A stretch of DNA of 64,000 nucleotides from Streptomyces sp. P3 (lineage in GTDB: Bacteria > Actinomycetota > Actinomycetes > Streptomycetales > Streptomycetaceae): NCBI RefSeq assembly GCF_003032475.1, contig NZ_CP028369.1:1860001-1924000 (forward strand). Direction: 5' to 3'. The position numbers and the translations under genes were made by a program. Of the stretch, positions 15,000 to 17,471 are shown one piece after another; position 1 is the stretch's first letter, and each line of letters opens with the position of its first letter. Under the pieces are notes generated by a model, which saw only the letters and a list, made by a program, of their open reading frames with translations, was not told where the DNA came from and ran no database searches.

Positions 15000-16187
15000 A
15001 TGACCTCTCCCGCGCGCCCCTTCCTGAACCGCCGTCTCGCCGAGTTCGGGACGACGATCTTCGCCGAGATGTCCGCCCTCGCGGCGACGACCGGTTCGAT
15101 CAACCTGGGCCAGGGCTTCCCCGACACCGACGGCCCCGAGGAGGTCCGGGAAGCGGCCGTGCGGGCGCTGCGGGACGGGCGCGGCAACCAGTACCCGCCG
15201 GGCCCGGGCGTGTCCGAGCTGCGCACGGCGATCGCCGACCACCAGCTCCGCCGATACGGCCTCTCCTTCGACCCGGACACGGAGGTCCTGGTCACCGCGG
15301 GCGCCACGGAGGCCATCGCCGCGACCCTGCTCGCCCTGCTCGAGCCCGGCGACGAGGTGATCGCCCTGGAGCCGTACTACGACTCCTACGCGGCCTGCAT
15401 CGCGATGGCCGGCGCCACGCGCGTGCCGGTGACGCTGCGCCCCGACGCCGAGCACCAGCGCTTCCGCCTCGACCTGGACGAGCTGCGCGACGCCGTCACC
15501 CACCGCACCCGGCTGCTGCTGATCAACACCCCGCACAACCCGACCGGCACCGTGCTCACCCGCGAGGAGCTGACCGCGATCGCCGAGCTGGCGGTGGAAC
15601 GGGACCTGCTCGTCGTGACGGACGAGGTGTACGAGCACCTGGTCTACGACGAAGCCGCACACGTGCCGCCGGCCACACTGCCCGGGATGCGGGAGCGCAC
15701 GGTCACCATCGGCTCGGCCGGCAAGACGTTCTCCTTCACCGGCTGGAAGGTCGGCTGGGTGACGGCGGCGCCCGGACTGGTCGCGGCCGTCCGCTCGGCC
15801 AAGCAGTACCTGACGTACGTCGCCTCCGGGCCCTTCCAATACGCCGTGGCCGAGGCCCTGCGCCTGCCCGACTCGTACTTCGCGGGCTTCCGCGCGGACA
15901 TGCTGGCCAAACGGGACCTGCTCGCGGGTGGCCTGGAGCGGGCGGGCTTCAAGGTCTTCCGCCCGGCCGGCACGTACTTCATCACCACCGACATCCGGCC
16001 CCTTGGCGAGAGCGACGGTTTCACCTTCTGCCGTGCGCTGCCGGAGCGCTGCGGGGTGGTCGCGATCCCCAACACGGTCTTCTACGACCACCGCGAGCAG
16101 GGCGCACCCTTTGTCCGCTTCGCGTTCTGCAAGCAGACAGGCGTGCTGGAGGAGGCGGCCTCCCGACTCAAGACGCTGGCCGCCTGA
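15000..16187 (+). CDS. PLP-dependent class I/II aminotransferase (DapC/kynurenine-aminotransferase-like)
   Basis: The ATG at 15000 is favoured over 14991 because AGGA then lies 8 nt upstream; it gives 395 residues. Fold-type I features are NLGQGFPDTDGP, the cofactor-contacting NTPHNPTGT, DEVYEHL, the Schiff-base lysine K242 in GSAGKTFSFTGWK, and the C-terminal arginine in PFVRFAFCK. Family members transfer amino groups from kynurenine, methionine or succinyl-diaminopimelate, and specificity cannot be read from sequence. Two displaced 3' pieces of the same gene lie downstream at 17031-17471 and 26585-26702. Both break off at the codon corresponding to 15750, so this gene's 3' end may have been exchanged by insertion. 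Confidence 0.92.
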   Translation: MTSPARPFLNRRLAEFGTTIFAEMSALAATTGSINLGQGFPDTDGPEEVREAAVRALRDGRGNQYPPGPGVSELRTAIADHQLRRYGLSFDPDTEVLVTAGATEAIAATLLALLEPGDEVIALEPYYDSYAACIAMAGATRVPVTLRPDAEHQRFRLDLDELRDAVTHRTRLLLINTPHNPTGTVLTREELTAIAELAVERDLLVVTDEVYEHLVYDEAAHVPPATLPGMRERTVTIGSAGKTFSFTGWKVGWVTAAPGLVAAVRSAKQYLTYVASGPFQYAVAEALRLPDSYFAGFRADMLAKRDLLAGGLERAGFKVFRPAGTYFITTDIRPLGESDGFTFCRALPERCGVVAIPNTVFYDHREQGAPFVRFAFCKQTGVLEEAASRLKTLAA

Positions 16188-16219
16188 ACAGCCACAGACG
16201 TACCAGCACATGTACCGGC

Positions 16220-16239
16220 CACACGGCCCTTGCCGTGTC
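16220..16239 (+). terminator. Terminator after the aminotransferase gene
   Basis: A perfect 7-bp stem ACACGGC / GCCGTGT with a CCTT loop starts 33 bp past the stop codon. Confidence 0.6.
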
Positions 16240-16253
16240 CCGCTATCGCCGAA

Positions 16254-16281
16254 CCAGGGCAAGCCCAGCCGGCTGCCCTGG
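16254..16281. terminator. Second hairpin between convergent aminotransferase and Uma2 genes
   Basis: The perfect 8-bp inverted repeat CCAGGGCA / TGCCCTGG encloses 12 nt. It lies between two convergent genes, so it may serve either strand, most likely the leftward Uma2 gene. Confidence 0.5.
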
Positions 16282-16349
16282 CCAGGAACGACCATCTCCG
16301 ACGACAGCGGCGCCGACGGCACGGGCCGGGCCGTACCGGGAGACCTTCG

Positions 16350-16904
16350 TCAGCGGGCGTCCGCCTCGGGCTCCGGGCGCGGGAGCTCGTCGAGGTCGAG
16401 GGTGAAGGTGCGGCCGTCGGCCAGGGGAATGGGGAGCTTGCCTGTGCCGTACGCACGGGTGTGCGCCGTGCTGTAGCCGCTCGTGGTGGGCTCAGTGTGC
16501 AGGACGACTTCGCGGGCGTAGGGATCCACGACGAGGTAGACGGGGATGCCGTAGCGGCCGTACTTCGCGGTGCAGTCGTCGTAGTCCTTGCGCGCCGAGG
16601 AGGTCGAGACGACTTCCGAGATCAACAGGACGTCTTCGAAGCTGTAGCGCTTGCCCTCCTTGCGCGCGTCCTCGCGCAGGATGGCCAGGTCGGGAGCGGA
16701 GTTCTCGTCGGCGGGGAAGTCGATGTAGACGTCGGAGGTGACCTTCGCATGACGGCCGAGGGCGGCGGCCGAGTCGATCTGCATCGACCTGATGGTGCTC
16801 GAGTGCTCCTCGCTCTGCGGGGTCATGATCACCTTTCCGTCGGCCCCGAACAGGACCGTGTAACCCTTGGGGAATTCGGTGTGCACGATCGCGTCGACAC
16901 TCAT
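16350..16904 (-). CDS. Uma2 (DUF820) family PD-(D/E)XK nuclease-like protein
   Basis: A GGAAGGAGC ribosome site precedes the ATG at 16904; the product has 184 residues. It carries the Uma2 hallmark series: P71-D72 in SAPDLAILRED, the E97 strand LLISEVVS, K114 within CTAKYGRYGIPVYLVVD, and D127. These define a restriction-endonuclease-like core. Uma2 proteins are abundant in actinobacteria and cyanobacteria; their cellular role is not established, though links to mobile DNA are often suggested. The gene is flanked by the intact aminotransferase gene and by a displaced aminotransferase 3' end, which points to arrival on a small mobile segment. Confidence 0.88.
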   Translation of the reverse strand: MSVDAIVHTEFPKGYTVLFGADGKVIMTPQSEEHSSTIRSMQIDSAAALGRHAKVTSDVYIDFPADENSAPDLAILREDARKEGKRYSFEDVLLISEVVSTSSARKDYDDCTAKYGRYGIPVYLVVDPYAREVVLHTEPTTSGYSTAHTRAYGTGKLPIPLADGRTFTLDLDELPRPEPEADAR

Positions 16905-17005
16905 GAACGGTGCTCCTTCCCGTGTGCGGTCAGGATACGGCGGACAGCGCCCTGGCACCGAGCCCGGCGGTACGGCTGTGAACCTGATCCGGACGACACC
17001 GCGAC

Positions 17006-17026
17006 AAACGAATAGGTGTGTGAACG
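17006..17026. repeat. Junction motif copy J1 (21 bp)
   Basis: This 21-bp motif has consensus AWACRAATRRGTGNGTGAACG. It occurs here, at 24927-24947 and at 26561-26581. Here it ends 4 bp before aminotransferase homology begins at 17031. Read leftward, it also lies about 100 bp upstream of the Uma2 start and could carry promoter elements. Confidence 0.7.
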
Positions 17027-17030
17027 CGGC

Positions 17031-17471
17031 GTCGGCTGGGTCACGGCGGCGCCCGGACTGGTCGCGGCCGTCCGCTCGGCCAAGCAGTACCTGACGTACG
17101 TCGCCTCCGGGCCCTTCCAATACGCCGTGGCCGAGGCCCTGCGCCTGCCCGACGCCTACTTCACGGCTTTCCGTGACGACCTGCGGGCCAAGCTGGACCT
17201 GCTGAGCGCGGGGCTCGCCGACGCGGGCTTCCGGGTCTTCCGGCCGACCGGGACGTACTTCATCACCACCGACATTCGTCCACTCGGCGAGTCCGACGGC
17301 TTCGCCTTCTGCCGCGCCATGCCGGAGCGCGCGGGCGTCGTCGCCATCCCCAACGCGGTCTTCTACGACCACCGCGCGGCTGGCGCCCCCTTCGTCCGCT
17401 TCGCCTTCTGCAAACGCACTGAGGTGTTGACGGACGCGGCGGAACGGCTCCGCAAGGCGTTCGCACACTGA
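17031..17471 (+). pseudogene. Displaced 3' fragment A of the aminotransferase gene
   Basis: This open stretch encodes the last ~145 residues of an aminotransferase, from VGWVTAAPGL to the C-terminus. It lacks the PLP lysine and the whole N-terminal half. The first 123 bp match 15750-15872 of the intact gene with a single mismatch. After that the two diverge to a homologous but distinct C-terminus (for example TDAAERLRKAFAH against EEAASRLKTLAA). The frame is intact and no start signal is visible. This is the pattern left when an element enters a gene, supplies its own 3' end and displaces the resident one. Confidence 0.88.

Follow-up and report, generated by a model that had tools for sequence, protein, structure and literature searches.

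Displaced dapC 3' ends stacked behind a chimeric aminotransferase gene in Streptomyces sp. P3: a probable attachment site of serine-recombinase elements

The window analyzed here, a stretch of 64,000 nucleotides of Streptomyces sp. P3 (genome G000; contig NZ_CP028369.1, positions 1,860,001 to 1,924,000), contains a dapC-type aminotransferase gene followed by displaced 3' ends of that gene. The intact gene, encoding a pyridoxal phosphate (PLP)-type aminotransferase, lies on the plus strand at 15003-16187, or at 14991-16187 if an alternative start is used. It matched Pfam Aminotran_1_2, and its score exceeded the cut-off of NCBIfam NF005855 (PLP-dependent aminotransferase). The label dapC is used because the attB site of phage TG1 matches this stretch and sits in a gene annotated as succinyldiaminopimelate transaminase. 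A 123-bp block starting at codon 250 (15750-15872, plus strand) recurs at 17031-17153, and the copies were identical at 122 of 123 positions, with the sole mismatch at 15761 (G) and 17042 (C). Upstream of the block the two copies were unrelated, with the resident gene on the left and non-dapC sequence on the right. Past the block, 227 of the following 300 bp were identical and homology reached both stop codons; the match of the displaced fragment to the intact gene was far beyond chance (tblastn, 1.4e-72). A Uma2 gene (16350-16904, minus strand; PF05685 and PADLOC model PDC-S03) lies between the copies. A first-pass annotation of this DNA had described the repeated block with one mismatch, the different but homologous C termini, and the intervening Uma2 gene, and all three were borne out.

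The displaced 3' end at 17031-17471 (end B, plus strand) is the first of a stack. All three displaced copies in the window are preceded by a similar 21-bp sequence, termed the P arm. P arm 1 (GAATAGGTGTGTGAACGCGGC; 17010-17030, plus strand) was identified by junction alignment and by a junction-model match and forms the right end of cassette 1, the cargo of which is Uma2. Cassette 2 carries a PhdYefM antitoxin (17633-17887) and a YoeB toxin (17898-18158), both on the plus strand and assigned by domain matches, and ends in P arm 2 (24931-24951, plus strand) with a dapC remnant of about 20 bp. The cargo of cassette 3 is an AAA/DUF234 ATPase (25003-26478, minus strand; PADLOC model PDC-S27). Its right end, P arm 3 (26565-26585, plus strand), is followed by the oldest displaced dapC 3' fragment (26586-26732, plus strand), which was found by sequence match and is decayed, with in-frame stops. 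This third fragment and a fourth junction spanning 24931-24970, each preceded by a similar flank, had been overlooked in the first-pass annotation. The junction model was built from 15 junctions, 7 of the 22 fragment rows being left out of the alignment (six partial pieces, and locus L128, whose row was its second gene); further partial pieces had no junction. When the whole of G000 was searched with it, the three window junctions scored 61.9, 54.7 (at 26565), and 40.1 (at 24931) bits, the intact gene scored 30.5 bits, and the rest scored at most 19.2 bits.

Separate trees were built from 29 loci, hand-picked from 121 sites, for the 5' part of the gene and from the same 29 loci plus three fragments for the 3' end. 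The resident 5' part of the window gene (codons 1-249; 15003-15749, plus strand) joined genomes G013 and G249 with support of 99/96. Its intact 3' end (end A; 15750-16187, plus strand), which would derive from the newest element, joined G346, G022, and G108 (98/93), and displaced end B paired with the intact end of G013 (100/95). In approximately unbiased (AU) tests, a grouping of the window with G013 was rejected for the intact 3' end (p 5.6e-5). A grouping of the window with G022 and DH5 was rejected for the 5' part (p about 1e-49), and the same three as one clade were not rejected for the 3' end (p 0.078). The conflict between topologies was as predicted by the first-pass annotation, which had proposed that an element recombined within the gene, supplied its own 3' end, and displaced the resident end; the AU tests and the empty sites described below support the same proposal. 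Judged by these trees, the window dapC is a chimera of a resident 5' part and an incoming 3' end. Relatives with this 3' end on an insertion-free gene, which the first-pass annotation would have counted against its proposal, did not turn up: the three genomes nearest to its intact 3' end (G346, G022, and G108) all bear insertions. In that part of the tree, the closest locus free of an insertion was L065, at a distance of about 10% and within a group of weak support (88/72). A short tail (16188-16228, plus strand) travels with end A, homology ending at 16228 in G013, G022, G346, G373, DH5, and S. ossamyceticus and at 16220 in G108.

Window positions 17031-18160, comprising displaced end B and YefM/YoeB, were 93.8% identical to the first unit of G013, in which this counterpart is fused to the intact gene; the flanking backbone was 93.4-93.9% identical. 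Since end B pairs with the G013 intact end at backbone-level identity, it is the old resident end. The displaced piece was without any 5' part and orthologous to an intact 3' end, which is not what a full second aminotransferase truncated by deletion would leave. A tandem duplication of the 3' end, followed by Uma2 insertion and divergence, could produce one genome with two homologous 3' ends in tandem, but it is contradicted by the trees, in which the two ends have different nearest relatives. The order of the cassettes also differs between G000 and G399, and each of the 39 listed fragments (31 loci) has a P arm in front of it, leaving this origin highly improbable. In G399, the first unit corresponded to window 17031-18179 and the second to 15750-17158 (both 85%), that is, homologues of the first two window units in reversed order. 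In G302, window 17031-24791 (cassette 2) occupied the first place, at 89% over 7.8 kb.

The window is one case of a recurrent system. Empty sites, for which the first-pass annotation had suggested a comparison across Streptomyces, were found in L045, L047, L053, L085, and L129, where 52-73 bp separated the end of the dapC match from the end of the match to a YbjN-like gene. ClpB lay behind the YbjN-like gene at those empty sites examined for it. By comparison with these sites, the backbone gene that directly follows dapC was placed at 35814-36428 (minus strand) in the window. Downstream 3' fragments beginning at codon 250 were present in 6 of 80 relatives (L058, L063, L064, L069, L074, and L098). 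Among the 20 loci first fetched, four had a fragment with a recognizable junction (L038, L039, L040, and L056) and one had a partial piece (L042). Within the genus, 31 of 392 genomes, one of them G000, gave matches to the junction model (29 if only the 380 good ones are counted); in the order, 21 of 293 genomes did so, nine of which were shared with the 31; stricter filters were used for these whole-genome counts, which may be low. Outside the genus, one genome of the order sample was matched, G579, from another genus of the same family. In one rearranged locus, L185 (G318), YbjN and ClpB lay upstream of dapC, not downstream, and two junctions were still present behind dapC.

A hand-made list comprised 39 displaced ends from 31 loci, all of which began at codon 250 behind the conserved 21-bp P arm, a sequence unrelated to dapC. 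L180, L183, L196, and L200 (a model junction with no clear tblastn start of a fragment), window 24931, and L233-L235 are not among these 39, and some comparisons were made without L128, L197, and the duplicate L044. Across the 39 junctions, information content per position was 1.33 and 1.18 bits from -20 to -1 versus 0.12 from -60 to -41, and the P arm was conserved beside differing cargo. This cargo included Uma2, YefM/YoeB, Phd/ParE, a protein near DUF6247 (below the cut-off) with a small partner, a 718-aa unnamed protein, an AAA/DUF234 ATPase, and a SNF2 helicase.

A second arm was found on the opposite side of the site. In L128, L197, G398, G299, and G579, the resident 5' part of dapC ends at the core and is followed by a different sequence, P'. 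This sequence also precedes an element-type dapC on plasmid NZ_CP108257.1. The core CTGGGT, in codons 251-253, is the stretch common to P, P', and dapC; in the window it lies at 15755-15760 (left junction, the inferred crossover region) and at 17036-17041 (right junction, from the junction alignment), both on the plus strand. The P consensus matched the reverse complement of the P' consensus (built from five sequences, G579 excluded) at 16 of 24 positions at one offset, compared with 5-8 at 13 other offsets. P and P' are thus inverted copies around the CTGGGT core. P-core-P' has the layout of an attP site for a serine integrase, with a length of about 56 bp. The dyad-symmetric site is seen in the family, and the window shows P only; its units are bounded by the same P arm and core as the recombinase-bearing G299, G398, and G579. 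L128 (6744-10723; S. roseolus) and L197 (1575-9440; G104) contain mirror-image insertions, in which the 5' part leads through the core into P' and a second dapC follows 3-7 kb later. Two ORFs (open reading frames) in the L128 insert resembled, by eye, an N6-methylase and a specificity-type subunit.

Full elements were found in three genomes. In G398 and G299, a recombinase gene begins beside the P arm and reads away from it. Its product has the domains PF00239 and PF07508 (Resolvase and Recombinase), with a PF13408 zinc ribbon in G299; the copy in G398 is frameshifted, and that in G299 is open over the 470 residues searched. Both genomes have a complete second dapC, with the resident dapC 5' part 82-108 bp upstream of it. 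The displaced 3' end of G398 was located about 40 kb downstream. In G299 it was on another contig, so that the membership of its two ends in one element is deduced. The same arrangement (a recombinase beside the foremost P arm, a spare dapC, and P') extends over about 35 kb in G579, the recombinase of which was 88% identical to that of G398 over the first 259 residues. In G579, the locus L233 (7883-16111) shows four tandem dapC junctions, the recombinase standing at the first and the three downstream being without one, the last of them behind YefM/YoeB. G579 thereby shows an integrase-bearing element stacked before integrase-less units, an arrangement that the window itself does not show. A recombinase at E <= 1e-100 was found in 28 of 392 genomes; by coordinates, only those of G299 and G398 sit at a surveyed junction, and the next best were 72-76% identical. 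No homologue of the G398 recombinase was found in the compared loci except in L192 and L199. By eye, the sequence beside the P arm of L069 resembles the start of the recombinase gene. With the TraB/FtsK and replication genes of actinomycete integrative and conjugative elements as the point of comparison, eight proteins from part of the G398 element were scanned and comprised the recombinase, a helix-turn-helix protein (below the cut-off), an N6-methylase, NERD, Mrr, and three without a match.

Phage TG1 has its attB site in succinyldiaminopimelate transaminase (PMC6549336), which is this gene; the right edge of the site extends to codons 250-251. TG1 uses a serine integrase, and the same paper notes that attB sites within open reading frames potentially disrupt the gene. 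Integration by a TG1-like phage is nevertheless hardly credible as the source of the cassettes. In the IMG/VR contig L146, the phage side meets dapC some 22 bp before codon 250, and what precedes this junction is unlike the P arm. Those upstream bases were kept in none of 15 aligned displaced ends, and the window cassettes showed no TG1-type junction upstream of codon 250. With its junction further upstream, as judged from L146, and its other arms, TG1 differs from the dapC cassettes. L146 (9970-10106; UViG_3300049141_000006), a viral contig ending in dapC and the sole IMG/VR contig obtained, has what looks like a junction of the TG1 type. In IMG/VR, no match was found to two exact P-arm strings, and tblastn with the displaced end matched 9 of 50,697 phage records, none of them named for Streptomyces. 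Plasmid NZ_CP108257.1 (Streptomyces sp. NBC_00057), one of 35 matched plasmid records, carries a nearly whole element-type dapC instead of a bare 3' fragment. This copy (L147, 14139-15437) is apparently frameshifted, its first ATG and 3' end being in different frames; P' stands in front of it and no dapC 5' sequence precedes P'. It is perhaps an insertion at another target.

The position of the exchange was examined by pairwise comparison. Between the window and G013, 192 of the 200 positions preceding codon 250 were identical; beyond that point, 319 of 420 were. For the change-point analysis, 35 pairs with a near-5' identity of at least 0.92 and a 3' identity of at most 0.85 were used; the pairs share genomes. 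The best change-point fell at +9 to +14 from codon 250 in 21 of these pairs, two of which use the 5' copy of L128 (non-dapC sequence after the core) and one of which is a carrier-free pair with a wide interval. Since the near-5' filter disfavors upstream points, a second selection was made on the far 5' part, and among its 14 sharp change-points, 8 fell at -5 to +20, 4 at +21 to +150, and 2 upstream. At a near-5' identity of at least 0.95, the 3' identity was below 0.85 in 0 of 11 carrier-free pairs versus 6 of 9 pairs with one or two carriers; at 0.92-0.95, the counts were 5 of 35 versus 24 of 38. G164 and G279 were of the resident type as far as the core and of the element type directly after it. 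The second gene of L128 showed the reverse pattern, with the types swapped about the core. The left junction thus often, and not always, coincides with the right one within the stretch containing CTGGGT.

Plain homologous recombination is a rival explanation. A circle or other donor with a truncated dapC 3' end could cross anywhere in the 440 bp of homology, the right boundary being inherited from one ancestral insertion. That boundary by itself needs no recombinase, several sharp exchange points do lie 30-110 bp inside the 3' part, and the left and right copies share identity tracts of variable length from the junction. But the majority of the sharp points lie at the core and are not spread over the 440 bp or the 5' part, and G164, G279, and L128 switch there. 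Moreover, the P arm, which is conserved while the cargo next to it varies, mirrors P', and a serine recombinase abuts it in three genomes. Homologous recombination is thus unlikely to be the whole explanation; it explains the exchanges at +60 to +120 and at other points off the core. Recombination at a 6-bp core alone does not explain the 123-bp identity in the window. Identity tracts of unequal length also run from the junction elsewhere (the first 100 bp in G013, 188 of 200 in L069, and 56 of 60 in L056), and later gene conversion between the copies, by which the first 123 bp of end B would have been made identical to copy 1, is therefore the likeliest cause.

Taken together, it is very likely that a family of serine-integrase elements uses the dapC core and that the stack in the window consists of remnants or cassettes of this family that are without an integrase. 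The chimera, the displaced orthologous end, the conserved P arm, the P/P' dyad, the recombinase beside the P arm, the spare dapC, and the stacks are observed; the action of the recombinase at the core and its making of the integrase-less junctions are deduced from sequence. The site would be the attachment site of this family, where the recombinase would join the P-core-P' of the element to the CTGGGT in codons 251-253. Full elements (G299, G398, and G579) would split the resident gene while bringing a complete dapC beside P', and the cell would therefore keep the enzyme. As the spare dapC holds the core again, later elements could enter and stacks would form, with the newest beside the intact gene. 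Neither the recombinase nor the P' side is left in the window, whose units run from a dapC 3' end through their cargo to a P arm. Because the left junction of a unit is the same core, the resident front half is fused to the 3' end of the last comer, with older ends downstream. The ancestral 5' part would have been fused to end B and the YefM/YoeB unit, the state still seen in G013; end A, Uma2, and P arm 1 would have been placed in front by a subsequent event at the core, and the junctions at 24931 and 26565 would have been left by older events. The first-pass annotation had spoken of codon-level repair. The reading frame is indeed restored, and the in-frame homology of the incoming 3' end explains this. 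Integrase-less junctions could also be made by the recombinase, either between the core of the spare gene and an attachment site, trimming the element, or by moving units in trans. A more specific version is tentative and somewhat doubtful, namely, an integron-like array anchored on dapC. Units of 1-8 kb (a dapC 3' end, toxin-antitoxin or defense-type cargo, and a P arm) would be moved in trans by the recombinase of full elements, each move restoring a functional enzyme gene and, at the front of the array, providing a new site for integration.

Several observations weigh against the serine-integrase family as the source of the stack. Integrase-less junctions would need pairs of attachment sites that serine integrases normally do not join. 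The first-pass annotation had called such an integration unusual for a segment of about 1 kb without an integrase. This stands for the window, where no full member is seen, and for G000, where no recombinase of the family was found at E <= 1e-100; it is eased by the serine recombinase and whole dapC of the family's full members. Of the 31 genomes with a junction, 29 showed no recombinase in the stretches that were fetched. The intact 3' end of the window falls outside the element lineage of G398 and the plasmid copy, as does the spare dapC of G299. The other 14 of the 35 change-points were spread from -352 to +347, with several sharp ones at +32 to +107, and L056, L180, and L196 switched type at +60 to +120. 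The contrast between carrier-free and carrier pairs faded with distance, being small at a near-5' identity of 0.88-0.90 (195 of 291 versus 299 of 383). Finally, Uma2 stood behind dapC without a displaced end in L057, L078, L102, and L104.

Among known systems, e14 and phage 21 in icd of Escherichia coli replace the 3' end of a metabolic gene, using a tyrosine integrase and about 165 bp; we know of no stack with unrelated cargo there. The staphylococcal cassette chromosome (SCC) element SCCmec uses the ccr serine recombinases and forms composite stacks at the housekeeping gene rlmH, with its site at the end of the gene. It differs in that Ccr models matched the dapC-site recombinase only far below their cut-offs. 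By analogy, the system may work like the accretion of cis-mobilizable elements (CIMEs) or SCC, the variant being mid-gene integration by elements with part or all of the target gene. As described alongside integrative conjugative and mobilizable elements (ICEs and IMEs), CIMEs have attachment (att) sites and no integration genes, and form stacks at one target, where a later element enters at the target gene before a decayed one (PMC5704250). The window is alike in its att sites, its stacking at the target gene, and its units, in which no integration gene was present. It differs in that the exchange involves 440 bp (146 codons) of a protein gene and that an entire copy of the enzyme gene travels with full elements. 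In the available passages on the Dehalococcoides ssrA islands, associated with the serine recombinase DsiB, 28 repeats are aligned downstream of the gene and 15 islands are without an integration module (PMC3146451). These islands are alike in having a recombinase beside the att site and a conserved motif by each repeat that aligns poorly to the gene. They differ in their RNA gene target and 20-bp 3' repeat, and those passages mention neither a spare target gene nor a 5'-side version. Accretion of actinomycete ICEs at a Streptomyces tRNA-Arg involves the same genus and accretion with decay at one site, and differs in its tRNA gene target (PMC9513070). The terms "SCO3658," "aminotransferase," and "serine recombinase" had no occurrence in the main text of that paper. 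Searches of the open-access literature showed no such array, no dapC-site element other than TG1, and no report of this site, of elements that carry their target enzyme gene whole, or of 3'-side and 5'-side versions occurring as a pair.

The last third of a metabolic protein gene is thus repeatedly replaced by mobile DNA with the reading frame kept, and whole-gene trees of this enzyme mix two histories. This would explain why the region behind dapC in Streptomyces is a variable island with genes for toxin-antitoxin systems and candidate defense functions. A further prediction is a new serine integrase whose defined attB lies in a conserved gene and which might be of practical use beside phiC31, phiBT1, and TG1. 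The question of how integrase-less units keep exact junctions becomes testable.

Further genes were noted within and around the cassettes. The PADLOC models matched by Uma2 (PDC-S03) and the ATPase (PDC-S27) are those of defense candidates, and both genes are regarded as candidate defense genes. Cassette 2 also contains an unnamed protein without a Pfam or NCBIfam match (18231-19127, minus strand; in the cassette span shared with G302) and an SNF2 helicase of the SCO1167/SCO6262 family (20533-23481, plus strand; NF058637 and PADLOC helicase matches; frame picked within a longer ORF). An unnamed protein without a PADLOC or NCBIfam match follows (23484-24791, plus strand; frame picked by us). 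Between the last junction and the YbjN-like gene, about 9 kb (26773-35604) gave no strong junction-model match and holds further genes that by eye were MerR-like, sigma-factor-like, and hydrolase-like. A protein of about 700 aa recurs behind dapC (L058, 12270-14423, with similar ORFs in L063, L056, and L039), and that of L058 had no match in Pfam, PADLOC, or NCBIfam. In L039 (10701-11530), a DUF6247-like protein (below the cut-off) adjoins an unnamed 116-aa protein; similar pairs were seen by eye in L056 and L058, and the pair in L039 looks like an undescribed toxin-antitoxin pair.

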